Below are positions 25,270-44,464 of a stretch of 64,000 nucleotides of DNA, piece after piece. Positions within the stretch are counted from its first letter, which is position 1. Each line of letters begins with the position of its first letter. The notes under the pieces were generated by a model. That model did not search any database, had not been told where the DNA came from, and worked only from the letters and a program-made list of their open reading frames with translations. Position numbers and translations under genes: made by a program. Where the stretch lies: positions 62,001 through 126,000 of IMG/VR virus record IMGVR_UViG_3300036770_007547; one strand, 5' to 3'. The stretch comes from a virus.

Positions 25270-25482
25270 TTATTTAACGGGCCGCTCACCGGTGAGGTAA
25301 GGAAGACTGAACCACAATTGGAACCATTCGGGAGTTCCGGGTTGGATGTTTTGATCTCGCATGATACGAGCTTTTTCAGTGCCGGTGTAGCTGATGTTGC
25401 TACCAGCAGTGGGTCGAGACGGAGGTTGGGAGTAGACCCCTTGGCCTACTCCGCTGAGACGTCGCAGCTCATCCAGTGTCAT
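25270..25482 (-). CDS. Small conserved T4-like phage protein
   Basis: The real start is ATG 25482, overlapping the nuclease stop as ATGA; the longer frame upstream only shadows the nuclease gene. The 70-aa product (MTLDELRRLSGVGQG ... GTEKARIMRDQNIQPGT ... WFSLPYLTGERPVK) resembles a small protein found near terminase genes in cyanophages. Its function is unknown. Confidence 0.7.
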   Translation of the reverse strand: MTLDELRRLSGVGQGVYSQPPSRPTAGSNISYTGTEKARIMRDQNIQPGTPEWFQLWFSLPYLTGERPVK

Positions 25483-27599: not shown

Positions 27600-27605
27600 T
27601 GGGGT

Positions 27606-27923: not shown

Positions 27924-27932
27924 TTATTATAC

Positions 27933-29716: not shown

Positions 29717-30058
29717 CTAGTCGTCGAAAGGTTCGTCATCTACGGCCATCATCATAGGCACTATGCCGGCACGTCGCTGCATGATCGCGATCTCGTCTTC
29801 GCTGTCACCATCTGTGACTTCGTCAGCACGCTCGCCGTCGTACACATTGTCCACGCCCACAGCACGCTTGAGCAGTTCCAGCTTGAGCTGCAAGGGAGGT
29901 ACAAAATTGTCATCACCTTCGGCGGCATCGTTGTTCTTGGGAGCTTCTACCTGATCTCCGGCTGCTGTGCTGGAAAGTTCGGGCACAGGATTGTGATCAC
30001 GCACATCTTCTTGGTCCACTTCGTCGGCCAAGCGTCGCAATATGTCTGCTATCTTCAT
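29717..30058 (-). CDS. Small acidic phage protein paired with fibre gene (unit 2)
   Basis: The 113-aa protein begins MKIADILRRLADEVDQED, is strongly acidic, and shares PLQLKLELLKRAVG with its paralogue at 27606. Related small proteins occur in cyanophages next to structural genes. The N-terminal helix could be a head- or fibre-docking segment. Start overlaps the preceding stop (ATGA). Function unknown. Confidence 0.7.
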   Translation of the reverse strand: MKIADILRRLADEVDQEDVRDHNPVPELSSTAAGDQVEAPKNNDAAEGDDNFVPPLQLKLELLKRAVGVDNVYDGERADEVTDGDSEDEIAIMQRRAGIVPMMMAVDDEPFDD

Positions 30059-30420
30059 CTCGGATATCCTTGGAATGATTTTATCGGGCTCTCGGTGTTG
30101 ACGCCGGGCGGTTCGTGACTGTCTTCGCTGCCCACCAGTTCTTCGTATTCACTGTCCACTGTGGCAAACGCTGCCTTCATCATGTTGTGTTCTTCGCGTG
30201 TGTAGGGATGCGCTGAGTTGTAGCGATCCAACCACGAAGCCTGGGGCATGTCTACTGCCGCAGTGCTGCGTCCATCTGCACAGGCAGCAGCCATCATCAC
30301 ACGATTGAGATTGTAGGCTCGATCATTTAGACTGCGGAATCGTATGTTTCCGGTCATGGCTGCTTGAGCGGTGTGTCTCAGCCGACCGTTTCGTTCTGTG
30401 ATGAACTCGCGAGCTCTCAT
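30055..30420 (-). CDS. Putative internal head protein with capsid-targeting N-terminus
   Basis: The 121-aa protein starts MRAREFITERNGR. A short basic-aromatic leader ending in I-x-E matches the T4 capsid-targeting sequence (MKTYQEFIAEA in IPIII), which the prohead protease gp21 cuts after L/I-x-E. The C-terminal HEPPGVNTESPIKSFQGYPR is shared with the next upstream gene, so the two are tandem paralogues. It overlaps its neighbours by ATGA junctions. The mature function is unknown. Confidence 0.7.
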   Translation of the reverse strand: MRAREFITERNGRLRHTAQAAMTGNIRFRSLNDRAYNLNRVMMAAACADGRSTAAVDMPQASWLDRYNSAHPYTREEHNMMKAAFATVDSEYEELVGSEDSHEPPGVNTESPIKSFQGYPR

Positions 30421-30758
30421 CGTGGATATCCTGCGAAGGGTTTTACGATGCTCTGGATGTTGCCACCTGGTGGTTCCCGGCTGCCCACATCAGTGTGGAC
30501 TGTGGGCGTGACGCCAAACTGTTTGAAAGCAGCCAGCATCTTTTCCTGATCGGCCTTGGTGTAGGTTCCGATAAACATGTTGTCCCCGATCCAACTCACG
30601 TCGCTGTCTCCGACATCGAAACCAGGCGCAGATGCCATGAGCACACCCATCCTATACAATTCATAGTATTTGTCTACACCACCAAAGCCACCAGGTATAG
30701 GGTACTCTTGGTATGGGTGCATTTTTTTGCTTTCAACTATAAACTCACGAGCACGCAT
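30417..30758 (-). CDS. Putative internal head protein, paralogue of the next gene
   Basis: The 113-aa protein starts MRAREFIVESKKMHPYQ, again a capsid-targeting-like leader with an IVE cleavage site. It shares YTKADQEKMLAAF with YTREEHNMMKAAF and the ending REPPGGNIQSIVKPFAGYPR with its neighbour at 30055. The middle part differs. A protein delivered into the head could be injected with the DNA; that is inference from T4 internal proteins. Confidence 0.7.
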   Translation of the reverse strand: MRAREFIVESKKMHPYQEYPIPGGFGGVDKYYELYRMGVLMASAPGFDVGDSDVSWIGDNMFIGTYTKADQEKMLAAFKQFGVTPTVHTDVGSREPPGGNIQSIVKPFAGYPR

Positions 30759-30759
30759 G

Positions 30760-31041
30760 TTAGCCCGCCTTGACTGCGTTTTTGCCCGAGCTCGTGGTTC
30801 CTAGTTCTTCGGCTGTGAAATTGGCGCCGGTGATGGTGAGCTGATTGCCTACGCCCACCCAAACATCGCTGCTCCAATTGGCCGGGATCGACGCAGCATT
30901 GCTGTAGATGTTGCCGGTGGTGGGAGTTCCATAAATCATGTTGACATTGTAGGTCACAGCGGTGTTTCCCGTGGTGATCCTGCATTTGTCAGTGTACCAA
31001 CTCTGGGCGCTCACTGATGTATAGACGTTTGCCTGTGCCAT
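30760..31041 (-). CDS. Small putative virion protein
   Basis: The 93-aa protein (MAQANVYTSVSAQSWYTDKC ... YGTPTTGNIYSNAASIPANW ... VGVGNQLTITGANFTAEELG) is rich in Thr, Asn, Ser and aromatic residues, as in beta-structured virion or decoration proteins. I do not recognise the family. AAAGGAAC stands 10 bases before the ATG. It is one base away from the next gene start in the same operon. Confidence 0.65.
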   Translation of the reverse strand: MAQANVYTSVSAQSWYTDKCRITTGNTAVTYNVNMIYGTPTTGNIYSNAASIPANWSSDVWVGVGNQLTITGANFTAEELGTTSSGKNAVKAG

Positions 31042-31058
31042 TTATTATAGTTCCTTTC

Positions 31059-32033
31059 TTACCACTTGCGGCAGCTCCAGTAACGTGCCTTGGTGCGCGG
31101 ACCGGGATTGTCACAATTATGCCGTGCCCGGAAGCTGCGCCGACGTGCTGGATTTGATTTTTTGATGCGCATGGTCTTGTCACCAAAATTGACTTTTTTC
31201 ACATTGCCAGTCTTGGGATCCTTGACATAGACCTTGAACTTTTTGACATCGCCTTGCATGGGTTTGCCCAACTGTACCTTGCGGCCTTGATATTCGGCTT
31301 CGGACATTTCTTCAAAATCAGGATCGCCGCCGTATTCTTCGACTAGCTTGTCCCATAGTATTTCGATCATCCGATCATAGTCGTTGATGACATCGTTCAT
31401 GCCTTTAGATGCTAGTTCGTCTTTGAGTTCTTCCATCATGTGTTGCAAGACATCTGCCGTACCAGGTCCCAGGTCACCTTCGAGAGCAGCGATTAGATCT
31501 TCCTCGTCTCCGCGATTGGCCAGGCTACGCAGATCGATGTCTATGTCACTCATTCGACCTTCGTCCACGGTGGTGGCTTGATTGGGATTGTCCATGGCAT
31601 TCACTGCTGCATCATCTGCGGCCTTGGCGGCAAGAGGGTCATTGTCGTTGGCGTTCTCGGACATGCGGCTTTCTAGGCCAGCACGACTGCGTATGAGATC
31701 TAACACAGCATCAAACGCCGATCCCGCATCGTGTTGTGGGGCAGGTTCGCTGCCGCATTCATCGATCGATTCTTCTTCTAGAGTGTAGCCTTGACCGCGA
31801 CTGGATCCCACCGCGCCATAGCGCCGTACAGTTTCGAGAGTTATACCATACTGCTCCATGAGTTGGATCATACGATCATCGGCCTGTAGCACCACGCCAT
31901 CGGCAGTGGTTTCAACGATGTGGCTTTCGATCAGGCATTCCTCGCGGATGTTGATGGCAAAGCTGTCGCCCACTGCTGGTGTGTCGATCCAAGTCTCGCA
32001 TTCAGAAATATACTCTTTGAGAGTACGCATCAT
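31059..32033 (-). CDS. Conserved head-region protein with C-terminal cysteine/basic domain
   Basis: The 324-aa protein starts MMRTLKEYISECETW (capsid-targeting-like, ISE site). The middle is acidic and helical. The C-terminal 60 residues, FKVYVKDPKTGNVKKVNFGD and SFRARHNCDNPGPRTKARYW, ending SCRKW, form a small domain seen in many cyanophage head-region proteins (DUF5872-like by memory). Two cysteines and many arginines suggest metal or DNA binding. GAGGA precedes the first ATG, which overlaps the upstream stop. Confidence 0.75.
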   Translation of the reverse strand: MMRTLKEYISECETWIDTPAVGDSFAINIREECLIESHIVETTADGVVLQADDRMIQLMEQYGITLETVRRYGAVGSSRGQGYTLEEESIDECGSEPAPQHDAGSAFDAVLDLIRSRAGLESRMSENANDNDPLAAKAADDAAVNAMDNPNQATTVDEGRMSDIDIDLRSLANRGDEEDLIAALEGDLGPGTADVLQHMMEELKDELASKGMNDVINDYDRMIEILWDKLVEEYGGDPDFEEMSEAEYQGRKVQLGKPMQGDVKKFKVYVKDPKTGNVKKVNFGDKTMRIKKSNPARRRSFRARHNCDNPGPRTKARYWSCRKW

Positions 32034-34663
32034 GAAATCCTCTTGTAGAGATCAAGCATGCGCTGATACTGATCTTGTTCCACCTGCTCGGCAATGGCGC
32101 CTAGATTGACCTGACCCGACGGAGCTCGGCCAAGATCACGCATGGCCATGGGGTTGTCACCCATGTTGTTGGGGTTCACTTGCAGCTTGGGACCATTGAC
32201 GCCGCCAGCCAACCCGTAGTCTCGGGTGGCACCCAGTTCAGCATAAGCGGGATCGGGCTTGTTGGCCATCTCTTCTTCCACCATTTCGCCTTGGCTGCAA
32301 CCGGCTTCGTGCATGCCAGCACCACCGCACTCACTGCAGGTGTCTTCGGCATCGATGCGCTGATAACCCGAGCTACCAAACAAACCTGCCAGTTTCAAAA
32401 GCTCGCCCAGCTTGGCAGCATCCTCGCCAGTGGCTGTGACAGTGACCGAGGGATCGCCTTGTGTGCTGGCGTTCATGGTAGCATTGACTTCTTCGCCCAA
32501 GATCTCCGACATCTTGTTCTGGAAACTTTCTTCCAATCGACCCTCGTACACGCCTTTGCCAAACTGCATGCCGCCTTTCTTGCTCTTGGGAGCTTCGTCA
32601 CTGGTGGCCACTGAACCTGCTGTGGTTGTTTCTTCCACGCTTTCGTCCTTCTTGGCCGGTAGATCTTTTTCTTTGGTCTTGGCAAACTTCTTGAGTTCTT
32701 TGGTGGGCATGTCGCTCATCTCTTTTGATGCGCCACGCAGTTCGCTCTTGGGGATGTCACCCTTCTTGGCAGCGTAGGCTATGCCAGCTGCCTTGCGCTG
32801 TGCTTTGCTTACAGCTTTTTCGCTGACAGCTTCTTCATCGAAGAGATCAGGCTGTGTGATCTTTACTTTGTTGGGAGCAAACTTTTGGATGAACTCTGCT
32901 CTCTGCCATTCGCCCTGCTCAAACTTGCTTAATACAGCATCTTTGAGTTCGCGGAAGCTCATGTCTCCCGAGTCCCATTTGTTTTGTATCCTTATGAGAG
33001 CATCACCCAAGTATGGATTGTCGTCGAATACACCGTCGGCATGATATGATAACCAATCAGAAATCTTGCGACCGGTTTTGTCATCAACATCACGGAACGC
33101 ACCTTCCATCTGTATTTCACTGTCGTCCTCGGGGCGATTGGCTTTGAGGTAGTCACGTGCCGAATCGATGTACTCTTGTGCTAGAGTGATCTTCTTCTGC
33201 ACCCACTCTGGCAGGTTCTCGTTGGCATCCAGGATGCTTTGCAGTTCTTCGGCAGCATCTTCGATGCTGCGGGCCTGGCTCTGGGCCATCTCACCTTCTT
33301 CGTCGTACTCGTCTTTGTCGTAGTCTTCGCCCATGGTCTTCTTGGCAGGCAGCTTGGTCTGCTTGGCTTTTTCTAGAGCACGCCGCTCAAGATCGTCGAG
33401 CTTTTTGTGATCTCGGGCCAACTGCTTGCGATCAGCAGCACGCTGTCCTGTGTTTTCAGGATCGCCAATGGCTTCTTCAACTTCTTCTTCACGTATAGCA
33501 GCACCACGGGCTAGTTTGCTGAGTCCAGTGGATTTGGCACCGAGGCGCTTGCCACCACCTGAACCTTTGGGACGTCCACGACCGCGTTTTTCGCCCGGCA
33601 CTACATGCGCAGCCTTCTTCTTGCCGGGTTTGAGGTTGCCCCACTCGTCGTAGTCATCGTCCTCGCCGCCTTCGTCGTCGCGATCGCTGCGATATCCGTA
33701 TTTCTTGTGTATGTTGCGCTCGCTTTCAGGATCCTTGATACCAGGCTTGGCACCTTTCTGCATGGCTTTGACAAGATTGATGTCCAGGGCTTCGTTGACA
33801 AATGCGCTGGCCATCGACACAGCATTGGATTTGTTCTCAGTGAAGTGGCGAGACATCATGCCATCGGCATGCAAACGCACTTGATACTCGTTGTATTCAC
33901 GATCAACAAACACTTCAGCTCGCCGGTCGTTGCCTTCCAGCACTTTTACCAGGGCCATGCTTTCTTTCATCTTCTTCTTTTTGTCTTGGGCAGCTTTCTT
34001 CATGCTTTCTTTCTTGTTGCCGTCCTTGTCAAGGTCGATGTAATCGGGCTTGGCTGCTTCTTTCACCTGATACTTTTTGCCATCCACTTCAAATTCTTGT
34101 TTGCCTGCGGCCTTGGCCTTGGCCAGCTCGCCGGAAAACTCGTTGCCTTCTTCCATGTCGGCTTCATTGACATCTTCTTTTCTCAGCTTGGCTAACACAG
34201 CACCAGCCACTTTCTCGCCGCGCTCTTTTGATCCATATCGCTCACCCGCTGACTTGGCTATCTTGGCAAACTGCTTGCCGGGCTTGCCGATGTCTTTGCC
34301 GGCGCGGGCTTTCTTGGCCGAATAATCACCGGTGCTGCCCTCTTTGACTTGGTCATGATCGGCATTGACCCATGCCAATACCTCATCATAATCGTAGCCC
34401 AATTTTTGTGCAGCCATTTCTTCGGCATCTTCTGGTTCAAGATTGCGATTCAATATCATCAGGTGCCGTTTTTTGCGTGCGATTTTGTCGTAGTCTGCTT
34501 GTGTAAATCCCTCGTCGCCTTCTTTCACCTGTTTGGCCTGTTTCGCGGCCTGTTTCATGGGCTCTGATTTGTCACCATCCTTGTCAAGGTCAATGAAGTC
34601 GGGTTTGCTGCCGCGGCCTTCCAGCAGATTCATTTTTGCGAGTATGTCGTACATGTTATCCAT
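32030..34663 (-). CDS. Large charged, putative prohead-core or internal DNA-binding protein
   Basis: The 877-aa protein has MDNMYDILAKMNLLEGRG at the start, with LLE-G fitting a gp21-type cut. DLDKDGDKSE (residues 25-34) and DLDKDGNKKE (about 205-214) are EF-hand-like DxDxDG loops, each followed by MKxAA. KRGRGRPKGSGG near 360 is an AT-hook. CSECGGAGMHEAGC near 775 is a DnaJ-like zinc knuckle. The rest is Lys/Glu/Ala-rich helix, typical of scaffold proteins. AAGGA lies before the ATG. Neither size nor domain mix matches a named T4 protein. Confidence 0.75.
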   Translation of the reverse strand: MDNMYDILAKMNLLEGRGSKPDFIDLDKDGDKSEPMKQAAKQAKQVKEGDEGFTQADYDKIARKKRHLMILNRNLEPEDAEEMAAQKLGYDYDEVLAWVNADHDQVKEGSTGDYSAKKARAGKDIGKPGKQFAKIAKSAGERYGSKERGEKVAGAVLAKLRKEDVNEADMEEGNEFSGELAKAKAAGKQEFEVDGKKYQVKEAAKPDYIDLDKDGNKKESMKKAAQDKKKKMKESMALVKVLEGNDRRAEVFVDREYNEYQVRLHADGMMSRHFTENKSNAVSMASAFVNEALDINLVKAMQKGAKPGIKDPESERNIHKKYGYRSDRDDEGGEDDDYDEWGNLKPGKKKAAHVVPGEKRGRGRPKGSGGGKRLGAKSTGLSKLARGAAIREEEVEEAIGDPENTGQRAADRKQLARDHKKLDDLERRALEKAKQTKLPAKKTMGEDYDKDEYDEEGEMAQSQARSIEDAAEELQSILDANENLPEWVQKKITLAQEYIDSARDYLKANRPEDDSEIQMEGAFRDVDDKTGRKISDWLSYHADGVFDDNPYLGDALIRIQNKWDSGDMSFRELKDAVLSKFEQGEWQRAEFIQKFAPNKVKITQPDLFDEEAVSEKAVSKAQRKAAGIAYAAKKGDIPKSELRGASKEMSDMPTKELKKFAKTKEKDLPAKKDESVEETTTAGSVATSDEAPKSKKGGMQFGKGVYEGRLEESFQNKMSEILGEEVNATMNASTQGDPSVTVTATGEDAAKLGELLKLAGLFGSSGYQRIDAEDTCSECGGAGMHEAGCSQGEMVEEEMANKPDPAYAELGATRDYGLAGGVNGPKLQVNPNNMGDNPMAMRDLGRAPSGQVNLGAIAEQVEQDQYQRMLDLYKRIS

Positions 34664-34674
34664 TTTGTGTATCC

Positions 34675-35274
34675 TTATTTCTGAAAGCCAGTGGCTGGAC
34701 GCGGGGGGCGTTTGATAGTGGTCATGGGACTGTTCACACCCATGGGAATATCATTTGTGGTTTCTGCAGGCTTGGTTTTGCCACCAGCAACGACAAACGT
34801 GGCATCAGCTGCTGAATTCTTGATCACTTTTTTGTCTTTGCCCACGGCTGCATAATCGCTGCTGGCTTCTTTTTGTTCTTTGGTGTCAGCAGGATATTCG
34901 GTGGTCAATAGATCTTTCTGACTTTCAATGCCCAACAGTTCACGATCCATGCCATTGGCCCAGTCGCGCTGTTGTATTACCAATCGATCGGGATCCAACC
35001 CCAACAGCTTGGCGATCTCTTGTATCTGTGGCGGTGTGGCTGGATAGCGCAGAGTAACGTCCACGATATTCACTGCTTGGTTGTTGAAGGCAGGAAAATC
35101 TTGTGGCTTGGACATGACCGGTGTTTTCTTGAATTCGCCTACAGTCACTGGATCAAACTTTTTGAGTTGATCTCGGAACTGTGAGGTGAATCCAGCCGGC
35201 ACATCACCCACGATTTTGATGCGATAATCGTGTGTTTTTTGGCTCTCGGTTAGGTATTGTGCGAATGTCTTCAT
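34675..35274 (-). CDS. Putative head-core protein with capsid-targeting N-terminus
   Basis: The 199-aa protein starts MKTFAQYLTESQKT, the closest match in the window to T4's MKTYQEFIAEA, with LTE-S as a predicted protease cut. The next 100 residues (YRIKIVGDVPAGFTSQFRDQ, VTLRYPATPPQIQEIAKLLG) form a small alpha/beta domain seen in cyanophage head proteins; the tail is Lys/Pro/Thr-rich. GATAAATA lies 18 bases before the ATG, so it probably heads a late transcript through the internal head protein block. Confidence 0.75.
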   Translation of the reverse strand: MKTFAQYLTESQKTHDYRIKIVGDVPAGFTSQFRDQLKKFDPVTVGEFKKTPVMSKPQDFPAFNNQAVNIVDVTLRYPATPPQIQEIAKLLGLDPDRLVIQQRDWANGMDRELLGIESQKDLLTTEYPADTKEQKEASSDYAAVGKDKKVIKNSAADATFVVAGGKTKPAETTNDIPMGVNSPMTTIKRPPRPATGFQK

Positions 35275-35291
35275 GATTTATGATCCTATCT

Positions 35292-35813
35292 TTATTTATC
35301 AGAACCGTTGTTTTCGCGATCACCCAATATAGATCTCAACAGTTCGTTGCGATTGAGCACACGCCCTTCGGCGCTTGGCAATGATGCCTTGTCTGATGGT
35401 TCTACCTGATCCAGTCTTGCTTTTTTGAGCTGTAGATCAATCATCTTGAGTTTCTTGTTCATCTTGGCTGTCTTGGCTGTGATGGCATGTCCCAACATGG
35501 TACCGGCCACGGCAAAGATTTCTGATGCGTATCTCGAATCCACCTGCATGCCCAATGTCATGAGCTCGTCAAAACTCTCCTGAGCCTTTTTAGCGAGGTC
35601 GTCCATCTCGTTGTCTGACGATTCCAGACCACGCACCGTGGGCAAGGCTTCTTCGATTTTGTCAAGTGCTTTGAGTGTTTCGGGAAGTATGGGCAGATTG
35701 TTGGCGAGGTCGTCGGCCGGCTCGGCCTGGTCTGAATCTTCGGGTTCGGGATTGTCTGATGATCTTGGAAGATCAAACAGTTCTTCGAGGTTGTGATTAT
35801 TTGCAAGGGCCAT
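35292..35813 (-). CDS. gp16: Small terminase subunit gp16
   Basis: The start is taken at ATG 35813 (173 aa, MALANNHNLEELFDLP); the longer frame overlaps the end of gp4. SFDELMTLGMQVDSRYASEI and a basic coiled-coil (KMNKKLKMIDLQLKKARLDQ) match the central domain of T4-like gp16, which forms the ring that recognises DNA for gp17. The N-terminal 60 residues are acidic. A 5-bp hairpin with GTAAATA in its loop region abuts the ATG, with no Shine-Dalgarno. Confidence 0.85.
   Translation of the reverse strand: MALANNHNLEELFDLPRSSDNPEPEDSDQAEPADDLANNLPILPETLKALDKIEEALPTVRGLESSDNEMDDLAKKAQESFDELMTLGMQVDSRYASEIFAVAGTMLGHAITAKTAKMNKKLKMIDLQLKKARLDQVEPSDKASLPSAEGRVLNRNELLRSILGDRENNGSDK
35293..35299 (-). 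promoter_or_regulatory. Late promoter motif ATAAATA
   Basis: GATAAATA on the minus strand, overlapping the stop codon of gp16 and 18 bases before the ATG at 35274. Confidence 0.6.
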
Positions 35814-35827
35814 GCGGTATTTACCGC
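35814..35827 (-). promoter_or_regulatory. Hairpin with GTAAATA in the loop, directly before gp16 ATG
   Basis: Minus strand GCGGT-AAAT-ACCGC followed at once by ATG. The late-like element GTAAATA spans stem and loop. A transcript starting after it would lack the 5' arm. Confidence 0.4.
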
Positions 35828-36258
35828 TTTTTGGCACCGTTGCGGAACAATGAATCTTCGTTGAGCACTCGGAACACTATGCCAGCACGCCGGCACCAGG
35901 CCTGGGCTGCCTGCCATTTGGCGTGATTTATGGCCACCACCATGCGGTCTCGTTCGCTCATCTTGCCTTCGATGAGACTCTGCTTTCTCGGTTTGATCTC
36001 AATGATCTCGGTGCATATCTTGTTGTTGCGAGTGCGATATCGCATGAACACATCGGGCACATAACTTGACATCTTACCGGTCAAGGGGTTGCGGTACTTG
36101 ATGGCTATGGCTTCGCTGGCCCATTCCAGCACAGCATCGTTGTTGTCGCAGAACTGGAAGAAACTCCACTCCCATCCTGATCGATAACGAGGATTTCCTT
36201 TACCTACATATTTCTGTGGATTCTTTGGCACGAATGTGCCCTGGGCAAAGTTGCTCAT
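35821..36258 (-). CDS. gp4: Head completion nuclease gp4
   Basis: The 145-aa protein has NPRYRSGWEWSFFQFCDNND, YVPDVFMRYR and EIIEIKPRKQ, the TnsA/restriction-type E...D...ExK arrangement of the T4 gp4 (50/65) head-completion protein. It acts on filled heads before tail joining, trimming or protecting DNA ends. The length is close to T4 gp4 (150 aa). The ATG overlaps the stop of the gene upstream by 4 bases. Confidence 0.9.
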   Translation of the reverse strand: MSNFAQGTFVPKNPQKYVGKGNPRYRSGWEWSFFQFCDNNDAVLEWASEAIAIKYRNPLTGKMSSYVPDVFMRYRTRNNKICTEIIEIKPRKQSLIEGKMSERDRMVVAINHAKWQAAQAWCRRAGIVFRVLNEDSLFRNGAKKR

Positions 36259-36614
36259 ACACGGATGTTACGACTCACGAATGGGTTGCCGTATGTGACT
36301 CCGCCCACGCCCAAGAGGGTGGTCTTGCTGCGCAAAGAGTTCATGTAATAGGCCAGGGTAGCTGACAGTTGTATTCCGGGCTGCGATTCAAGTTGTGCCA
36401 GGATGTCCAATGCGCTGGTTCCAGTGGCAGTGCTGATACGGAACACTGATGTGGTGAAATTCTTGGCTGCTGTTTTGTCTTTGAGACGAGACATAAAAAA
36501 CGACAACACCGCATCGTACTCAGTGGCCGGCACGCTGGCGTCATACTGATAAAATTGATCGTATACCCTGACCGTGGGATCCAACCCCGGATTGGCATTG
36601 TTGACTGAGCCCAT
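36255..36614 (-). CDS. Conserved small virion protein of T4-like marine phages
   Basis: The 119-aa protein (PTVRVYDQFYQYDASVPATE ... SFFMSRLKDKTAAKNFTTSV ... TYGNPFVSRNIRV) resembles a conserved cyanophage structural protein encoded between gp4 and tail genes. I cannot name its role. It lies 2 bases downstream of the tube-like gene and overlaps gp4. Confidence 0.7.
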   Translation of the reverse strand: MGSVNNANPGLDPTVRVYDQFYQYDASVPATEYDAVLSFFMSRLKDKTAAKNFTTSVFRISTATGTSALDILAQLESQPGIQLSATLAYYMNSLRSKTTLLGVGGVTYGNPFVSRNIRV

Positions 36615-36616
36615 GA

Positions 36617-37822
36617 CTACCCTCCAGAACGTTGACGACCGGCCACAGCAGGATCAGGAATGCAAGGTACAGCGCCCGGTTTAGATGGTGGGAACGGAAA
36701 CTGTGGTGCTTGCAACAATCCACTGCGATTGGTGACCACCGGTGAAGATACCGATCCCACTACTCCGCTGCCAAGCACACCGGTCTGCTGTCCGCGCAAC
36801 ACTGTCTTGGCACAACCTAGAACTTCTTCTTTGATGCTGGGTTTGCTGGTCTTGGTGGTTTCATAAATGCGACCGGCTTTTTGCACAGCACCTACTACCC
36901 CGGCCACAGATCCAGCCTGTACGTCTTGTATGATACCAACACCGGTGTCTAGGATACCGCCACGGCCGATCACACTACGGGTACCGCCAGGACGGCTCAA
37001 TGGACTTGTTTCTTGATCATAGTAGTTGGGATCGCCAAATCCCTGCACATTGGTGTCGGGTCTCACACCACCAATGGCACCGGTGTAGTATTTCACTGTT
37101 TCAAAATTGATGGTCATGGTGTTTTCCATGACACCGTCACCTGAATCGTAGTCGTAGTTGTCGTGCGACCAATCCGTGATCATGGGGTTTATCAACACAT
37201 ATTCAACAAACTTGTGCTGATTGAATCCGTATATAGATATGTCTTTGAAAAAAGGCGGTTTGCCGTTGGTGGTACCGTCGCTGTAGGATTCACCGATGTA
37301 GCCCCAGTCATTGGCCAGCCTATCTGGGGCATATATGTCTCTGCTGTTGTAGTCAAACCCATTGGTTTGGTTTCCACTGACACCCAGGGTACCATTGGTA
37401 GTGGCCTGACCACGATAGGGTTGGCTGGGGTCTTTGTAATAATAGGCAAAATAGTTGTACCACATGGTACGGATCAAATCTCCGCCGTCATCGTGCAATT
37501 TCACAGTGACTGGTTGATATTCGATCTTGCTCTGGACCAAGCGTTTGCGATTGTATTGATTCATGGTGTCCACAGACACCTTGTATTTGGGTAGGTCTAC
37601 TGTTTTTACCAGTAGACCTATCGTGCTTTGATCAGGAGAGGAGAAAATATTTCTCAGACGTGGTATCTGTGAAGTGTTGAGATTGAAGTAGACATGAAAT
37701 AGAAACTTGAAGCGCGGAGCGTTTTCATATCCACCACTGCGAAAAATCTTTGACGCATGGCGATAGTCCTTGACATAGTCATTGCCAAAAAAGGCTTTGA
37801 GAAAGTCCTGACCAAACGCCAT
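36617..37822 (-). CDS. Tail tube-like protein, possible tube initiator or baseplate tube protein
   Basis: The 401-aa protein begins MAFGQDFLKAFFGNDYVKDY. Residues about 45-130 (PRFKFLFHVYFNLN, LLVKTVDLPKYKVSVDTMNQ, YQPVTVKLHDDGGD) follow the gp19-type tube fold. The C-terminal 120 residues are Gly/Val/Pro-rich and probably extended. T4 gp48 and gp54 also carry a tube fold plus an extra region, so a role at the start of the tube is possible. No Shine-Dalgarno is seen. Confidence 0.7.
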   Translation of the reverse strand: MAFGQDFLKAFFGNDYVKDYRHASKIFRSGGYENAPRFKFLFHVYFNLNTSQIPRLRNIFSSPDQSTIGLLVKTVDLPKYKVSVDTMNQYNRKRLVQSKIEYQPVTVKLHDDGGDLIRTMWYNYFAYYYKDPSQPYRGQATTNGTLGVSGNQTNGFDYNSRDIYAPDRLANDWGYIGESYSDGTTNGKPPFFKDISIYGFNQHKFVEYVLINPMITDWSHDNYDYDSGDGVMENTMTINFETVKYYTGAIGGVRPDTNVQGFGDPNYYDQETSPLSRPGGTRSVIGRGGILDTGVGIIQDVQAGSVAGVVGAVQKAGRIYETTKTSKPSIKEEVLGCAKTVLRGQQTGVLGSGVVGSVSSPVVTNRSGLLQAPQFPFPPSKPGAVPCIPDPAVAGRQRSGG

Positions 37823-37835
37823 ACGTCAGATCGAC

Positions 37836-38462
37836 TTAAGAGCCTGAGCCAGTTACCGTGGTTCCAGCTGCTCGTCCAACCGATGTACCCACACCAATAC
37901 CAAGCGGTGTTTGCACAGCGTTGTCGAAACGTATGTTCATGGTAATTGTCACTGCTTCACTATTGGCATAGTTGAGTTCGTTGTAGTTGACACTACGCAG
38001 GAAGCAACCATACATCTCCCAGGTCTCTAGGACTGTGGGTGCCGAAGTTCCGTTACCACCATCAAGTATCTCACAGCGTGTGAGGAACTTGTAGTCGATA
38101 CCGGCAGCAGCAGATGCCTGCTCAACGAAATCCAATTGTTTCTGGAGTTGTTCGCCCACCAGTTTGGCCACTTCACCGGAAGCATCGTCACGGAGGTTGA
38201 CCGTGAGTTCTTGCCAGGTGTGTTTGCCAGCCAAATAGAGTCGGCTGTTGTAGATGGGAATCTCGATCTCTTCAAACTCGACTTGTGGGCGAGTAAAATC
38301 GATCACTTGTTTGGTGAGCTCAGTCCTTGGGGTGCTTACTCCAAAGTTTTCGAATACCACTCGGAAGCGGTATTGAAGCTTGGGCATAAGCAGACCTTGA
38401 GTAGTGCTACTCTGGTCACTGGCCAAGGGCACTGTCATTCTTGTCAAAGATGAAACGGCCAT
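37836..38462 (-). CDS. gp19: Tail tube protein gp19
   Basis: The 208-aa protein (T4 gp19 is 163 aa) has PKLQYRFRVVFENFGV, KQVIDFTRPQVEFEEIEIPI and EMYGCFLRSVNYNELNYANS, the conserved tube signatures. It stacks as hexamers inside the sheath. GATAAATA 23 bases upstream and ACAGGAGAA before the ATG give it its own late promoter, just after the sheath-gene terminator. Confidence 0.92.
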   Translation of the reverse strand: MAVSSLTRMTVPLASDQSSTTQGLLMPKLQYRFRVVFENFGVSTPRTELTKQVIDFTRPQVEFEEIEIPIYNSRLYLAGKHTWQELTVNLRDDASGEVAKLVGEQLQKQLDFVEQASAAAGIDYKFLTRCEILDGGNGTSAPTVLETWEMYGCFLRSVNYNELNYANSEAVTITMNIRFDNAVQTPLGIGVGTSVGRAAGTTVTGSGS

Positions 38463-38484
38463 TTGTGTTTTCTCCTGTTCCTTT

Positions 38485-38491
38485 TATTTAT
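38485..38491 (-). promoter_or_regulatory. Late promoter motif for gp19
   Basis: GATAAATA on the minus strand, 23 bases before the gp19 ATG, followed by A/G-rich leader with ACAGGAGA. Confidence 0.7.
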
Positions 38492-38509
38492 CACTCAGTC
38501 GGTGTGTCA

Positions 38510-38531
38510 AATCGGGGCCTAGGCCCCGATT
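38510..38531 (-). terminator. Terminator hairpin between sheath and tube genes
   Basis: A 22-base perfect palindrome (AATCGGGGCC-TA-GGCCCCGATT) begins 12 bases after the sheath stop and is followed on the minus strand by TT-GACAC. Being symmetric it could stop RNA polymerase in either direction. It separates gp18 from the gp19 late promoter. Confidence 0.75.
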
Positions 38532-38542
38532 GTCCTCAGTCA

Positions 38543-41500
38543 TCATACCGCCGAACTTGTAGCAGTTTGACCTGCTGCCAGTTCACCGGTGTTCTTGAGT
38601 CTCACCGGAATGTAGATGAACTCAACAGCCTTGACTGGTTCGATAGCAATGTCTACATAGAGTTCATTGCGGTCGATACGAGCCGGCGTGTTGTTAGACA
38701 GATCACAGACCACCAAGTAGTCATAGATACCACGCTTGGCGATCAAGTCGATCATGAGACCGTCGATCGCATTTGTGATCTCGTTACGAGTGATCTGATC
38801 ATTGGGTTCAAACACAAACTGCTTGGCAATCTCAGTCAATCGTCCACGTATGTAAGCTACCAGACGTGCTACGTTGATCCGATCCAATGCACTGGTCACT
38901 GCACTTTCAGTCTTGTTACCATAGTTGGTGATACCAACACCGGGGATGAACGTGATGGGGTTGATCTTGTTGGTGTAAAGAACATCCCGCAGTCCTTGTC
39001 CAGTCGCGATGCTGACAAACTCACCAGTCTGTGCATTGACATAACCAATGGATGCAGCATTGTCGATCACACCACGACGTACACCTGCCGGGGCCAACCA
39101 AGGGAATCCAACTTCATCGCTGCGAACGATAGTGCGCAACATCATGTGGCTGGCTGGTTGTACCACCACCGATCCCGAAAGATCGTTGGTCAAACAAGCA
39201 GGGTAGAACGTTCCCAGGTAAGGATCGCTGATAGTAAGGCCATCGCCCGAAGGGAAACCAGTACCGTTGTTGTTGGTACTCCAACTCACGATATCAGCAC
39301 CAACTGGTTCCAGTCGCATGGGTGTGTCGCCAATCACGAAACCGGTGTTGTTGCGCTCGTTGTTGAGTGCCACCATGTTGGGGATCAGTTCAGGATAGTT
39401 GGGAGTTGCGATGAGATCAAACACCAACTGTTCTTCACGCAATGTGTCGGAACTGTCGATGGCTGCTTTCATGGCCGCAACCACTACCTGACGCTGGCTC
39501 AATCGACCCATGTAGGGAGATCCGTCAGCGCGATTGCCCACTGTGGTAACCCAAGCATTGCTTTCAAGCACGCTCCAGTAGTTTGAGTCGCTGGGGAGAT
39601 TGCCCTGTGTGGTAGCTGTACAGATGTAAATGATTCCATCGTACTGCACAAGGTCGCCACCAACGTATGTGGTAGGATTGCTGTAACCGTCAACTTCGAA
39701 GTCGCGAGGATTGAAATAGTCAGAACGGAATGTCTTGACATTGAAACCACTACGACGTGTGTTGAACAACAATGTGCCCGAAGGATACAAAGTAGAATCG
39801 GGAGCATCGATGTCAAGATAGTTGCTGGTCAACAGTGTTGTGATGCTGGGGATCGAGTCAGTGACTGGATCTGTGACACCGTTTGGTGCCCAACGAGCAT
39901 CAGCGAACACAATGCCGTCTGATGTGGTTTGATCCGTGTTGTCGATCAACACCCACTGATTGACACCATTGAGCGGCTGCCAACGACGTATCACTGGATA
40001 GTTTTCGAGATCGCTGGTGTCGATCCAGAGATCACCGTTGACCAGATCAGTGTTGTCGCTTTGCTTGGTGGGCGAAGTAGCACTGAAGATCGGACCGGCT
40101 GGGTCGGTGAGAGTGAGGTTGAATCCACGAACGTCGAGATTGACGTTGCGATAACCTTGCCATCCCGAGTCGCCTTTGATCATGATGTCAGCTTGGTTGG
40201 TGGCCGAATAGTACCAACGGCGTCCATCAGCAGGATCCAGGCTTGGAGCATCGGCTGCAGCGGTATAATCAAGCTCTTCCCAAGATGACAGCAACAGAGA
40301 ACCAGTGATGTCTTTGGGTCCTGAACGCACACCGTCGGTGCTGGTAGTGAATCCAGCTGCTGTGAGTGGTGTACCCAGTGTGTTGGCGAGAACGATGTCA
40401 CCACCACGAGCATGTGTAAATGCGATAGCTCCGGTGTCTGTGACCGAAGCCGACACGTTGGCTACACCAGCTGCCGAAACCGCAGCAACGAAATCGGCTG
40501 CTGTGGTACCACTCAAGGTCACTGTCACGGCAGCAGTCAACGAGTCACTGTTGGCTTGGCTGGCACGGATAGTAAAGGTGTTGCCGGAAGTAAAGGTCGG
40601 TGTGAGTTCGTCACCAACAATCACTGTGGGACCAGTGGTGGCACGCACCAACGGCAGGAATGTCACAGTGTTATTGAGCACCGAAGCGCTGGTCAATTCA
40701 GGATCGGCATTGTACTGGATGTACAGTGTGTCGGCCGGAATGTTTTGACCACCACCAACTGGATCGAGAGCCTTGTCGGCGCTCCAGTTGTTTTCGTAGA
40801 TCGGTGTGCTCTGTGTCACAAACGCACCCAGAGCAGAACTGTAACGACGCACCACGATGTCGGCACCGTTGTTCACGGCTGTCAGCATGTTCCATACCGA
40901 GCCAGTGGGGCGCGGGGAAACGTCGGTGCTGCGCCAGCGTGGTACTGTGTAGTTGGGACTCTGCTGGAGAGCAGGGGCGAAATAAGTGCCCGAAGTCATG
41001 CCCAACGCGGTCAACAGTGCTGCGGTACTTTCGCTGGAGATGTTGATGACGCCACCATCAGAACTGGATCCATCGCTGAGAGCCGAGCTGTCAGCGGTCA
41101 ATACCAAGCGATCGCTGCTGTCGACTTCGGCATAGATGCCGGGCAAGTTCACCGAACGCTGATTGTTGATCGCGTTGGCAAGACCTTCCACGGTGTTGTT
41201 GGGGCTGGCAGGTACCGAAACGTACACACCGTTGATCACGATCTGTTGTCCGGCTGTGAGAGCCGCGGTCACTGCTTCTTCGCCTTGAACTGTGGGCCAG
41301 CTGAGTTTCCAGGCATCGCTGCCTACCAGGACCCAGGCGTTGTCGCTGTTTTTGTAATAGATGGGGTTGTATGCGCTGAGAGCATTCACACAATAGTCAC
41401 CAATGTTGCCTATGCTGGCAAGAGGTACGCCGCCAGACACTTGATTGGATGCTGTGATCACCAAAGGAATCTTGGTAGAAAATGCGCCAGTGGTTTGATT

Positions 41501-41947
41501 CCACTCAAAAACACCCCAAGAAGTGCTTTCTGTGTCAAGCCAATAAGTATCATTGGTGGGAGCACCAAGAGGGCGCACCAGTGATGCTGTGAGCTCGGCG
41601 AGGTCGATGTCAGCACGCTGTACATAGGCACGATTAGTGATGCCTAGCACAGAGAACGCTGCCAACAAACCGTATTCGTTGAGTTCATAACCGTTGATCG
41701 GTGTTCCAGCCGAAGTCTTGTAGAAGAAAGGATTTCCAAACGTGGCGGCTAAATCACGTTGGCTTGTGATGAGATAAACACGATCTGCGTTGGCAGCCAA
41801 TGTGCCAGGTGCTACGCCTACTCCAGTTCCCGAAATCTTGTTTTGCGCAGTGGCAATCAAGATGTAAGGCACTGAGTTGGTAGCAGCAGGTACATAGTTC
41901 GACTCATCGATAACTGTAACTTCTACACCGGGGGATACGAGGGCCAT
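38543..41947 (-). CDS. gp18: Tail sheath protein gp18, greatly enlarged
   Basis: The 1134-aa protein keeps sheath ends: MALVSPGVEVTVIDESNYVP with LAATFGNPFFY near residue 70 and RAYVQRADID, and C-terminal NPITFIPGVGITNYGNKT then VARLVAYIRGRLTEIAKQF. T4 gp18 has 659 aa. The extra sequence lies in the middle (about 150-830) and includes GDLWIDTSDL...W and a CBM5/12-like stretch near 39550-39690 (YVGGDLVQYDGIIYIC...NYW). These would sit on the sheath surface. AAGGAAG precedes the ATG and CATAAATA lies 32 bases upstream. Confidence 0.95.
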   Translation of the reverse strand: MALVSPGVEVTVIDESNYVPAATNSVPYILIATAQNKISGTGVGVAPGTLAANADRVYLITSQRDLAATFGNPFFYKTSAGTPINGYELNEYGLLAAFSVLGITNRAYVQRADIDLAELTASLVRPLGAPTNDTYWLDTESTSWGVFEWNQTTGAFSTKIPLVITASNQVSGGVPLASIGNIGDYCVNALSAYNPIYYKNSDNAWVLVGSDAWKLSWPTVQGEEAVTAALTAGQQIVINGVYVSVPASPNNTVEGLANAINNQRSVNLPGIYAEVDSSDRLVLTADSSALSDGSSSDGGVINISSESTAALLTALGMTSGTYFAPALQQSPNYTVPRWRSTDVSPRPTGSVWNMLTAVNNGADIVVRRYSSALGAFVTQSTPIYENNWSADKALDPVGGGQNIPADTLYIQYNADPELTSASVLNNTVTFLPLVRATTGPTVIVGDELTPTFTSGNTFTIRASQANSDSLTAAVTVTLSGTTAADFVAAVSAAGVANVSASVTDTGAIAFTHARGGDIVLANTLGTPLTAAGFTTSTDGVRSGPKDITGSLLLSSWEELDYTAAADAPSLDPADGRRWYYSATNQADIMIKGDSGWQGYRNVNLDVRGFNLTLTDPAGPIFSATSPTKQSDNTDLVNGDLWIDTSDLENYPVIRRWQPLNGVNQWVLIDNTDQTTSDGIVFADARWAPNGVTDPVTDSIPSITTLLTSNYLDIDAPDSTLYPSGTLLFNTRRSGFNVKTFRSDYFNPRDFEVDGYSNPTTYVGGDLVQYDGIIYICTATTQGNLPSDSNYWSVLESNAWVTTVGNRADGSPYMGRLSQRQVVVAAMKAAIDSSDTLREEQLVFDLIATPNYPELIPNMVALNNERNNTGFVIGDTPMRLEPVGADIVSWSTNNNGTGFPSGDGLTISDPYLGTFYPACLTNDLSGSVVVQPASHMMLRTIVRSDEVGFPWLAPAGVRRGVIDNAASIGYVNAQTGEFVSIATGQGLRDVLYTNKINPITFIPGVGITNYGNKTESAVTSALDRINVARLVAYIRGRLTEIAKQFVFEPNDQITRNEITNAIDGLMIDLIAKRGIYDYLVVCDLSNNTPARIDRNELYVDIAIEPVKAVEFIYIPVRLKNTGELAAGQTATSSAV

Positions 41948-41979
41948 AGTTGCTTCCTTGTAAAAAAGTTTGTCCTTGA

Positions 41980-41986
41980 TATTTAT
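41980..41986 (-). promoter_or_regulatory. Late promoter motif for the tail sheath gene
   Basis: CATAAATA on the minus strand, 32 bases before the gp18 ATG, in the divergent gap with the HNH-like gene. Confidence 0.7.
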
Positions 41987-42030
41987 GAAAAGCCGATAAA
42001 ATCAGGCCGTTACGATAGCCTACATATAGG

Positions 42031-42038
42031 TTTAAATA
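42031..42038 (+). promoter_or_regulatory. Late-type motif TTTAAATA, 4 bases before an ATG
   Basis: TTTAAATA followed by CAAG and the ATG at 42043. If used as a late promoter the transcript would begin at or just inside the start codon. Confidence 0.45.
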
Positions 42039-42042
42039 CAAG

Positions 42043-42387
42043 ATGAGACCGTTATGTAGCGTTTGCAACAGCAATTTCCGGGCAGTGGCGTACCACAAGT
42101 ATGACCGCGTCTACTATCGCAGTCGTTGTGATTCATGCATACGCAAAGGAAAGAAACTCAAGAAGGTGCAACCCAGATGGGTTCGTGCTGGATATCAAAA
42201 AAAGAAACAGTGCGACCGCTGCCGTTTCATAGCCCGGCACACATCACAACTGTTGGTGTATCACGTAGATGGTAATCTCAACAACAACGAACTGAGAAAT
42301 CTCAAAACTATTTGCTTGAATTGCTCGGTGGAAATCACTAAGATGGATCTGCCTTGGAAGCGCGGAGATCTTGAACCAGATCATTGA
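42043..42387 (+). CDS. Zinc-binding HNH-like protein
   Basis: The 114-aa protein has CSVCNSN, CDSCIRKGK, CDRCRF and ICLNC, two zinc-ribbon style CxxC pairs. VYHVDGNLNNNELRNLKTIC follows the HNH pattern H-x-D-G-N-x-x-N...N-L-x-x-L-C. It may be a small nuclease or a DNA-binding remnant of one. Similar proteins stand near the tail genes of cyanophages. It is the only plus-strand gene between 3.2 and 47 kb and overlaps the convergent kinase gene by 50 bases. Confidence 0.7.
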   Translation: MRPLCSVCNSNFRAVAYHKYDRVYYRSRCDSCIRKGKKLKKVQPRWVRAGYQKKKQCDRCRFIARHTSQLLVYHVDGNLNNNELRNLKTICLNCSVEITKMDLPWKRGDLEPDH

Positions 42388-42979
42388 CTTGGGCATACAA
42401 GTCGTCAAGGCTGCCGTTGTTGTCGATCACACGATCAAAGTCGGTACCAATCCACGAAGTTTCGCTGGCATGTACTCCTAGATTTTGCAAGGCCACGGCG
42501 GCAAATTCTACGCCACTATTGGCCGATTCGGCGATGCTGTACCAGTCAGGATCTGGGCCACGTTTCACACGGATCACAGCACCGCCTTGGGCACGGATGG
42601 CACGGATCTCGTTGGGGAAACGACAGTCCGAGATCACAACATCGTCCTGTGCTGTGCGTAGTTTGTTTTCCAAACTGGCTATCCAGATGTCATCGTGGAA
42701 TCCACGTCGACATACTTCTGTGCCCCAATGTTGTAGGATATAGCGTGGGGTGATCTCGCGACCCAAGCGACGACTCCACCATTCATCGGGCTGTTCTCTC
42801 CATTCCCGACTGCTCTTGGTGCGACCCTCTAGCATGGTACGATCCCAGCCAAACACCGCGGCGCACGCATCTTTCAAAGTGGCTGCAAAACTGTCCCTGC
42901 GGAACTCATGGATATTCACGAGATAATCGGCGATGGTATCTTTTCCAGCCCCGATGAGACCACACACTCCAATGATCAT
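42338..42979 (-). CDS. Deoxynucleoside monophosphate kinase (T4 gp1-like)
   Basis: The start at ATG 42979 (213 aa) overlaps the previous stop (ATGA). MIIGVCGLIGAGKDTIAD holds the P-loop (GLIGAGKD, residues 7-14); DSFAATLKDACAAVFGWDR and ILQHWGTEVCRRGFHDDIW match T4-like dNMP kinases (T4 gp1, 241 aa), and DVVISDCRFPNE the nucleotide-binding core. It phosphorylates dNMPs for phage DNA synthesis in the cytoplasm. Confidence 0.88.
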   Translation of the reverse strand: MIIGVCGLIGAGKDTIADYLVNIHEFRRDSFAATLKDACAAVFGWDRTMLEGRTKSSREWREQPDEWWSRRLGREITPRYILQHWGTEVCRRGFHDDIWIASLENKLRTAQDDVVISDCRFPNEIRAIRAQGGAVIRVKRGPDPDWYSIAESANSGVEFAAVALQNLGVHASETSWIGTDFDRVIDNNGSLDDLYAQVNDLVQDLRASKADPS

Positions 42980-43620
42980 TGCAACTTCTCCTGTATGAAT
43001 TTTGCAAAAGCCCAATGGGCTTCGAGTTCGTAATGTTGTTCTATGCGTTTGAATCCGTGAGTGTCACAGAAATCCACCCAGCTGGGCAAAACCAGATTGT
43101 TTTGTTTCAGGCATCGATGCAAAGAGGTATCCCCGGGCACCTGATAGCTGAAACCAAATCTCCAGTCAATGTTTTTGCTGTCAAGATACTGTTGCAAAGC
43201 CAGCATTTGCACCACGCTGTGTTCGCGAAACCATTCGTCATCAAACTGATCACGGAATATGCTTTGTGCCAACACATGCATCAAAGCACCGTTGTTGTTG
43301 AGACGAGGATGCAGCTCTATGGCATTACCGCTGTTCAACGAAAAATAACGAGATTTTAGATCGCGTTCCTGCCAGAATGGTATGGCCAATTCCAAACGAT
43401 CGAAGTGGCTCCATTGAATGTACACAAAATCGTAGTGATGTTCCTCGAGATGTTGCACAGTGCGGCGGCGTATGCTGTCGTTGCTGCTGCCGGCCTGGGC
43501 TATGTTCACGACCTGCCAATCCGCAACATAGTTGGGCCAAGTCAATGTCGGACTCACTTCGGCATCTTCGTGTAATTCGCAACCTTGCACATGGCTGCAT
43601 CCGTTGACCAACACTTTCAT
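42976..43620 (-). CDS. SGNH-hydrolase-like phage protein
   Basis: The 214-aa protein begins MKVLVNGCSHVQGCELHED. G-C-S-H replaces the G-D-S block of SGNH esterases; AQAGSSNDSIRRRT supplies a glycine/asparagine block and the tail has an ELEAHWAFAKF with histidine. Such proteins are frequent in marine phages near glycan genes, with unknown substrate; an acyl-esterase role is possible. ATGA overlaps on both sides couple it with DexA and the kinase. Confidence 0.65.
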   Translation of the reverse strand: MKVLVNGCSHVQGCELHEDAEVSPTLTWPNYVADWQVVNIAQAGSSNDSIRRRTVQHLEEHHYDFVYIQWSHFDRLELAIPFWQERDLKSRYFSLNSGNAIELHPRLNNNGALMHVLAQSIFRDQFDDEWFREHSVVQMLALQQYLDSKNIDWRFGFSYQVPGDTSLHRCLKQNNLVLPSWVDFCDTHGFKRIEQHYELEAHWAFAKFIQEKLQ

Positions 43621-44150
43621 GTGAGTTCACGTATGTTGAGATGTTCGAGGGTATCATGCAACATCACAATCTGTCGCCGACAGTCTTCGAGGGCATTGTG
43701 AGTGGCCGGTGGTTTTGGCACTCCCGGCCATAGGCTGTAAACTGTTCGAGCATCGCGCACACGGTAATATTTCCAAGGCAGGGCCATGCCAGCTTCTTTG
43801 TAAGCATGCTCGAGTATGTTGGCATCAAAAGTGGGACCATTGGCCCAGAACCTATTGCTGTGCCAGATCATCCGGCCCAGTTCTTCCAGACTTTGTTTCA
43901 ACGAAATACGATCGTGGTCTCCAAACGCTTCGTCTTGTATGTGTTTGGGTTGTTGGCTCCACCAGGCCAAGGTGTCGTCCTGTACTCGCCGAGAAGGCTG
44001 GCTTTCGGGATCAATCCTGGCATAGTAGCTGATCCAGTTTTCCCAATCGCAATGCCGATTGAGGGGATCAAATGTCTGCGCTGCGATTGTGATTATGCAG
44101 GCCTCGGGTCCTGTGCCCAAGGTTTCGATGTCGATCATGATATCAGCCAT
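43617..44150 (-). CDS. dexA: DexA-like 3'-5' exonuclease
   Basis: The 177-aa protein has MIDIETLGTGP (D7, E9 of the DEDD family), FWANGPTFDANILEHAY and THNALEDCRRQ (final Asp), all DEDD exonuclease motifs. It is shorter than T4 DexA (227 aa) and resembles the Rv2179c-type exoribonuclease group. It would degrade DNA or RNA for nucleotide recycling or mRNA turnover. The ATG lies in a 6-bp hairpin with a TGCTATAAT promoter element; no Shine-Dalgarno. Confidence 0.85.
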   Translation of the reverse strand: MADIMIDIETLGTGPEACIITIAAQTFDPLNRHCDWENWISYYARIDPESQPSRRVQDDTLAWWSQQPKHIQDEAFGDHDRISLKQSLEELGRMIWHSNRFWANGPTFDANILEHAYKEAGMALPWKYYRVRDARTVYSLWPGVPKPPATHNALEDCRRQIVMLHDTLEHLNIRELT

Positions 44151-44167
44151 GCTGGGATTATAGCATG
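44148..44167 (-). promoter_or_regulatory. Hairpin with extended -10 element overlapping the dexA start
   Basis: Minus strand CATGCT-ATAATCCC-AGCATG: the ATG of dexA is in the 3' arm and TGCTATAAT (44165-44157), an extended -10, spans the 5' arm and loop. The predicted start is at or next to the ATG. Confidence 0.4.
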
Positions 44168-44182
44168 ACTTGGGAAGCCAGT

Positions 44183-44464
44183 CTAGCGATAAAGGTTGAG
44201 TAGTTTGAGCAGTTTGGCCTTGGGATTTATCCGCTTGGTACGCTTGGCCTTGCGTGCCTGTCGAACCTTGGTGCGCTGGCGTGTTTTTTTCATGCGTTGT
44301 GCTTGGGCAACATCTGGCGCCGACGAACAGTCGGACACCTTGGGCACTGTACGGTTGCGCCTAGGACCAGATTCACAGCGCCAACGCAGGGTCACTTTGC
44401 CGGTCTTGGGATTCCGCCGCCACACCATGCGATGCTCGTCCAAGATGAATTCGCTGGCTCTCAC
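44183..44464 (-). CDS. Small very basic head-targeted protein
   Basis: The 93-aa protein starts (GTG) MRASEFILDEHRM, a capsid-targeting-like leader, and is then dominated by Lys and Arg (MKKTRQRTKVRQARKAKRTK). A basic protein sent into the head could neutralise or condense packaged DNA, like T4 internal proteins; inference. An AGGAT precedes the GTG. Four bases separate it from the neck gene upstream. Confidence 0.7.
   Translation of the reverse strand: MRASEFILDEHRMVWRRNPKTGKVTLRWRCESGPRRNRTVPKVSDCSSAPDVAQAQRMKKTRQRTKVRQARKAKRTKRINPKAKLLKLLNLYR

Follow-up and report, generated by a model that had tools for sequence, protein, structure and literature searches.

Why should genes of one T4-like phage that encode different proteins begin with nearly the same nine or ten residues? 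The question is raised by a stretch of viral DNA of 64,000 nucleotides, hereafter the window, which comprises bases 62001-126000 of the 222,775-bp virus record IMGVR_UViG_3300036770_007547; 144 kb of this record were read as stretches, and the remainder was covered by two narrow pattern scans, which may have missed further leaders. DNA near-identical to the record was not found in the phage collection compared. Six genes of the window, termed A1, A2, B, C, D, and E, start with leaders that very probably direct them to the capsid and are removed as propeptides by the prohead protease, in the manner of the internal proteins (IPs) of phage T4. Internal proteins with a common leader have been described before: according to PMC12373910, which cites Repoila et al. 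(1994), at least ten were found in T-even phages by their signal sequence. Two features are new, namely a separate class of nine-residue leaders, carried by dozens of protein bodies of uncultivated T4-like phages, and a candidate polyprotein that would be cut by the prohead protease.

The six leader proteins and the predicted protease

Genes lie on the minus strand throughout the leader region of the window. A1 (30055-30420, 121 residues) and A2 (30417-30758, 113 residues) carry the leaders MRAREFITE (codons 30394-30420) and MRAREFIVE (codons 30732-30758). B (31059-32030, 323 residues; MRTLKEYISE, codons 32001-32030) combines an acidic body (isoelectric point, pI, 4.7) with a C-terminal Cys domain (phrog_7595), and its start overlaps the stop of E (32030-34663, 877 residues; MDNMYDILAKMNLLE followed by G, codons 34619-34663). 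C (34675-35274, 199 residues; MKTFAQYLTE, codons 35245-35274) has a weak match to the virion structural protein family phrog_14802. D (44183-44464, 93 residues; MRASEFILDE, codons 44435-44464), which has a GTG start, encodes a very basic body of pI 12 with 28 Lys and Arg vs. 3 Asp and Glu residues. All six N-termini named in an earlier account of this DNA made from the letters alone (the sequence-only reading) were confirmed, each with an ATG or GTG start and an upstream AGGA- or AAGG-like sequence, that is, a plausible ribosome-binding site. Its claim that all of them follow the T4 leader plan ending in [LI]-x-E stands for A1, A2, B, C, and D, whose leaders have 9-10 residues and end in [IL]-x-E, and fails for E, whose leader of 15 residues does not fit the short plan. 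The E leader also ends in L-x-E and belongs to a second class, whose members are about 15-27 residues long and end in L-x-E/[GAS] (the slash marks the proposed cut). The D leader has one extra residue; in its relatives, the register reads I-T-E/HRM, L-E-E/HRM, and L-D-E/HRM, thus the cut motif of D is kept. The bodies had been described as unrelated, which does not apply to A1 and A2, since they are paralogs with 35% identity over their full length and a common C-terminal K-x-F-x-GYPR (conserved as SPIKxFxGYPR in A1); for the leader class as a whole, bodies without detectable similarity were indeed found. Sequence searches of Pfam, PHROGs, and PDB with A and C found no function, and PDB profile searches gave a best E-value of 0.15 for A and nothing useful for C. 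A ChaB match in the A body was sub-threshold and was not used.

The wider search of the genome for leaders suggested in the sequence-only reading was carried out with the strict pattern M[KR]x(2,4)[FY][ILV]x(1,2)E, which matches 4 of the 151 open reading frames (ORFs) in the 144 kb. Shuffles gave a mean of 0.31 matches, with 0 of 2000 reaching four, and none of 837 internal Met positions matched. D is a fifth match and stands outside the 151-ORF set, which was selected greedily, because of an overlapping antisense ORF. In T4 (231 ORFs), the pattern recovers IPII and IPIII together with two false positives; thus, it is not error-free on its own, and conservation weighs more. Scans of IMG/VR gave 115 relatives, whose 115 distinct leader ORFs form only 7 body clusters, none evidently spurious.

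The rows of our first residue-identity table had been picked by the leader pattern and were therefore biased, so the comparison was repeated with homologs picked by body alone. The strict leader is present in 48 of 55 such homologs of A, 52 of 53 of C, and 5 of 6 of D, and all listed homologs that lack it still have [IL]xE within the first 15 residues; for the A family, this motif occurs within the first approximately 15 residues in 55 of 55. Examples of exceptions that keep it are MKINEIIIE/G, MKISEVIIE, MRAREFVPQNLGE/A, and MRATEFELEE/H. Among the leader-picked rows, the A family has invariant R2, A3, E5, F6, and E9, whereas residue 8 takes at least eight identities; F/L4, Y7, L/I8, and E10 are found in all 43 rows of the C family, and L/F4, Y7, I/L/V8, and E10 in all 16 rows of the B family. 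In A, B, and D, the Glu hardly varies, if at all, while the preceding residue is free, which is the pattern expected of a protease site.

The capsid-targeting sequence (CTS) of T4 is a leader of 10-19 residues, of which residues 4 and 7 serve targeting and residues 8 and 10 serve processing (PMC9026906). The leaders of B and C match these determinants at all four positions, and their form MK[TS][FL]xxY[IL]xE is, judged by these residues, the classic T4 type; A and D have equivalent processing positions (I7, E9) and keep an aromatic F6, but nothing in them corresponds to the residue-4 aromatic. The T4 proteins IPI, IPII, IPIII, and Alt, whose CTS is cut by gp21, likewise share a 10-residue leader plan with an [LI]xE end, and the IPII and IPIII leaders read MKTYQEFIAE. 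Further points of likeness are the S77 protease encoded in the genome and the attachment of a single leader to unrelated bodies; in addition, ADP-ribosyltransferase bodies are found in phages related to this one. The two systems differ in that no body analyzed here resembles a T4 IP and in that there are many more body types, sometimes in tandem.

The predicted protease is a gp21 homolog encoded in the same record (Peptidase_S77, PF03420, 5e-25), as is a gp23 (Pfam match Gp23, 2.5e-99). Both belong to a T4-type head module located outside the window, at record positions 135313-141191, which comprises portal gp20 (Portal_T4, 2e-102), an acidic core protein, the S77 prohead protease, a gp22-like scaffold, and gp23; gp20, gp21, and gp23 were assigned by Pfam, and the gp22-like gene by its place and sequence. 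From the motifs, their conservation, their position at gene starts, the unrelated bodies, and the protease gene, all of which are observed, we infer targeting, cleavage, packaging, and injection. We propose that during prohead assembly the first leader residues would bind the scaffold core and bring the protein inside, whereupon the gp21-type protease would cut after the Glu of [IL]-x-E and release the mature cargo, which would remain with the DNA and probably enter the next host alongside it. The sequence-only reading had already assigned the leaders to the capsid; the gp21 homolog, the CTS determinants in B and C, and the conservation of the leader on unrelated bodies support this claim as far as it describes leaders of the T4 type that target the head and contain a cut motif for the prohead protease, while packing, cutting, and injection are predicted. 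The leader proteins might have an anti-restriction activity, given that GmrSD enzymes are inhibited by each of the three T4 IPs (PMC12373910).

The nine-residue tag in IMG/VR and the virion evidence

IMG/VR was scanned with a DNA pattern that encodes exactly MRAxEFIxE and with a control pattern in which residues 3 and 6 were exchanged; the leader pattern gave at least 146 matches, vs. 25 in all for the swapped control. Among the 146 matches listed, 143 begin ORFs of at least 40 codons and 127 are the first start after an upstream stop, a position taken by only 4 of the 25 control matches. The median distance to the upstream stop is 8 codons for the matches listed and 259 codons for the control. 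The matches listed comprise 141 distinct leader proteins, whose bodies fall into about 39 clusters without detectable similarity, nearly all of them unannotated. One tagged body contains a clear ADP-ribosyltransferase domain (PF03496, 9.5e-13) and so represents the kind of enzyme to which the Alt protein packed by T4 belongs; other tagged bodies contain GNAT (PF00583, above the cut-off in L060), DUF6321, or a chitinase class I/lysozyme-like domain (1.7e-11), and there are sub-threshold matches to ParB_N and Kinase-PolyVal. The tagged genes are often paired, and runs of three or more occur at four loci. Judged by these matches, the form MRAxEF[IV]xE of A1, A2, and D is a nine-residue variant class, a portable tag on many unrelated proteins in environmental phages. 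In the papers searched, the leader did not occur as a literal string.

The S77 protease is encoded in 12 of the 14 leader-carrying records above 120 kb, and gp23 as well in 7 of the 8 such records tested; a search for Peptidase_S78 in 14 records gave no match. If the proposed role is correct, the nine-residue tag would reveal from sequence alone which proteins are packed in the heads of uncultivated T4-like phages and probably injected. Since the same tag occurs on dozens of unrelated environmental-phage proteins, it could serve in searches for proteins that may enter bacteria by phage injection, and since the three tagged proteins of T4 are all anti-restriction inhibitors (PMC12373910), the tagged bodies would provide a ready list of counter-defense and takeover candidates.

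Two islands in other records (L142, 2414-6637, and L221, 281-5690) contain adjacent leader-tagged genes that are mutually unrelated. In one gene of the L142 island, the leader is followed by a stretch resembling a twin-arginine translocation (TAT) signal and by a chitinase class I/lysozyme-like domain.

For C, there is a possible link to virion particles: its homolog in Pseudomonas phage PA5oct (MK797984, 126689-127291) bears a record note of detection by electrospray ionization tandem mass spectrometry (ESI-MS/MS), and the PA5oct region is syntenic with the window for the sheath, gp4, and C. Several observations weigh against the interpretation of the leaders as cleaved capsid-targeting propeptides. 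The PA5oct homolog itself reads MKSFRDYYDASK, in which K2, F4, and Y7 are kept while Leu8 and Glu10 are lost, and the C leader is just slightly more conserved than the C body (0.62 vs. 0.53). Mass-spectrometric annotation among the leader proteins comes only through this homolog of C, and not through A, B, D, or E; it does not extend to E because E has no detectable similarity to the MS-detected PA5oct protein beside C (this neighbor had been considered as an E ortholog on the grounds of synteny and its MS note, and was dropped after direct comparison). The MRAxEF[IV]xE leaders of A and D, at nine residues, are one residue shorter than the T4 CTS and lack the residue-4 aromatic. Moreover, the S77 protease was found in none of the 20 leader-carrying records of 53-102 kb tested; of four records below 102 kb examined, three are plainly fragments with genes related to this T4-like phage, and in the fourth the T4-like genes are limited to replication.

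Some of these observations bear on an alternative that we regard as unlikely, namely that the leader serves targeting only, binding a scaffold or head component without being cut, or that it is simply a conserved part of the structure of a virion protein at its N-terminus. Without its cut positions, the PA5oct homolog of C would be packed uncut, or the C segment would simply be part of the fold; by its residues, this homolog, annotated as MS-detected, is a natural test of targeting without cleavage. That the C leader is just slightly more conserved than the body agrees with this alternative, as does the behavior of the T4 CTS, where Asp at residue 10 blocks cutting and still allows packaging (PMC9026906). 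It is opposed by A, B, and D, where the Glu is invariant or nearly so and the residue before it is free, even in homologs in which other leader residues have changed (the MKINEIIIE, MKISEVIIE, and MRAREFVPQNLGE exceptions above).

It is very improbable that the leader addresses another part of the virion, such as the tail or baseplate: leader genes flank the sheath, tube, and gp4 genes in the window, but the leader resembles the experimentally defined head CTS of T4 and ends in a prohead-protease motif, and related records contain islands with this leader that lie away from tail genes. Common descent of whole proteins by gene duplication, or chance, without any targeting role, is largely refuted and survives only as a residual explanation for individual proteins. 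A1 and A2 are true paralogs, but the leader stands at gene starts on about 39 bodies without detectable similarity among the matches listed and depends on residue order (at least 146 matches vs. 25 for the swapped pattern).

Protein E as a candidate polyprotein

The many internal cut motifs of the 877-residue E were overlooked in the sequence-only reading. Judged by these motifs, E may be a polyprotein cut by the same protease at about ten sites into small modules. Motifs of the form [LIV]xE/[GAS] follow residues 48, 108, 167, 202, 243, 291, 397, 707, and 712, and variant motifs (MxE or xK) occur at 172, 234, 615, and 786. E contains DUF3008 (617-672), which starts directly after AVSE, and an AT-hook-like GRGRPKGS. 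When E is split at [LIV]xE/[GAS], the pieces start with recognizable modules, and a DLDKDG module occurs twice, each time directly after a site.

The E family (23 proteins, including one truncated copy of the window E) has 192 [LIV]xE[GAS] motifs vs. 54.8 expected, a total inflated by shared ancestry because the counts are not independent; the window E, taken by itself, has 10 motifs vs. 3.3 expected (p about 0.002), and both points count against the strength of the polyprotein interpretation. A motif with Asp in place of Glu is rarer than expected (16 vs. 50), and variants in which the spacing is shifted or the order reversed reach at most about 1.1 times the expectation, so that the excess goes with the exact spacing and the Glu, as for a multi-site substrate like gp22. 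At the E-family sites, the P1 Glu is kept at 0.63 vs. 0.42 for other Glu residues, the hydrophobic P3 residue at 0.63 vs. 0.55 for other hydrophobics, and P2 identity is 0.41, like the average. Of the similarities between E proteins that lie out of order, 34% begin no more than three residues away from a site, vs. 12% for random positions. Module shuffling rests on this test of high-scoring segment pair (HSP) boundaries, since single-linkage clustering of the E modules over-merged and was dropped. An unbiased site scan of the ORFs of this genome places gp22 and E as the top two; the same scan of T4 (231 ORFs) ranks gp22 first, gp21 third, and gp23 fourth, which validates the method.

This resemblance to gp22 is also the basis of a competing explanation, which we hold to be a tentative possibility: E would be an additional core or scaffold-like protein that is shredded, most of its fragments leaving the head, like T4 gp22 and gp67. 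Those core proteins likewise have multiple [LIV]xE[GAS] sites in one protein, the gp22 of this genome and that of T4 share the site enrichment of E, and E is largely charged and of low complexity. However, E is modular and coexists with a gp22-like gene: its pieces are recognizable modules (DLDKDG, STGDYSAKKARAGKD, and DUF3008), which are found again in different order and number and are still directly preceded by the site, and it lies about 40 kb away from the 20-21-22-23 cluster, which already contains the gp22-like gene. That E is a true head-targeted polyprotein, built of small shuffled modules with prohead-protease sites between them, by which one gene would deliver separately released, DNA-packed, and injected peptides, and that it forms together with MRAxEFIxE a general effector cargo system of tagged genes or cleavable-chain modules in T4-like environmental phages, has in our view close to, though somewhat less than, an even chance. 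If so, the E family would show that a virus of bacteria, too, can have a polyprotein that is processed by a separate capsid protease.

Two other systems offer partial parallels. The propeptides of SPN3US and phiKZ head proteins, both N-terminal and internal (PMC5694885), also have Glu-terminated cut motifs, with several cut sites per substrate, and the diverged ejection proteins gp53 and gp54 have identical N-termini; however, those propeptides mostly exceed 100 residues and have the motif A/S-x-E, whereas the phage studied here is of the T4 type with short leaders. The polyvalent proteins of phages and conjugative elements (Iyer et al., 2017; PMC5512222) are likewise multi-domain and predicted to be delivered with DNA, and some leader-bearing relatives have ADP-ribosyltransferase, GNAT, ParB-like, and weak kinase matches; their release is ascribed to embedded peptidases, whereas a separate prohead protease is proposed here. 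Polyvalent proteins have two or more disparate enzymatic or effector domains; in E, Pfam finds DUF3008 only, and E has no polyvalent enzymatic domain. The polyprotein idea for E thus resembles the multi-site cutting of gp22 and SPN3US together with polyvalent release, and is an exact match to neither.

Protein F and neighboring genes

A further protein of the window, F (21645-23012, minus strand, 455 residues), is a homolog (23% identity, 1e-18) of a PA5oct protein annotated as MS-detected and is located upstream of the terminase large subunit-like ORF. It contains 6 [LIV]xE[GAS] motifs vs. 1.6 expected, and as many as 13 vs. 2.5 were counted in its relatives; a leader resembling the CTS was not seen in F. 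Judged by these motifs, F may be a further protease substrate.

The Cys domain that ends protein B is also found at the end of a nucleotidyltransferase-like protein of the Kyanoviridae phage Melnitz-3, and next door in HTVC008M. The nucleotidyltransferase-like proteins of these two phages (L126, 3342-5294, and L125, 3079-4869) start with MKKFSEIIE or MKTLKELLR.

Interspersed with the leader genes of the window are three minus-strand genes for a terminase small subunit-like protein (35292-35837; weak phrog_445 match), a gp4 head-closure protein (35821-36258; phrog_218, 9e-40), and a gp18-like tail sheath protein (38543-41947; PF17482, 7e-16). The sheath protein is unusually long, at 1134 residues, and its residues 755-791 give a weak match to the carbohydrate-binding CBM_5_12, below the Pfam cut-off. 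Tail-fiber-like ORFs at 55606-61198 and 25920-29708 of the window have N-terminal segments in common, MPLDFPA(N/S)P.LNDTYSF..KTW and MAIQ.F.TSR.N, which look like common anchoring domains attached to different bodies. A small ORF at 25479-25904 has a signal-peptide-like start followed by VIDGDTIEIE and, by eye, resembles a secreted thermonuclease-type protein.

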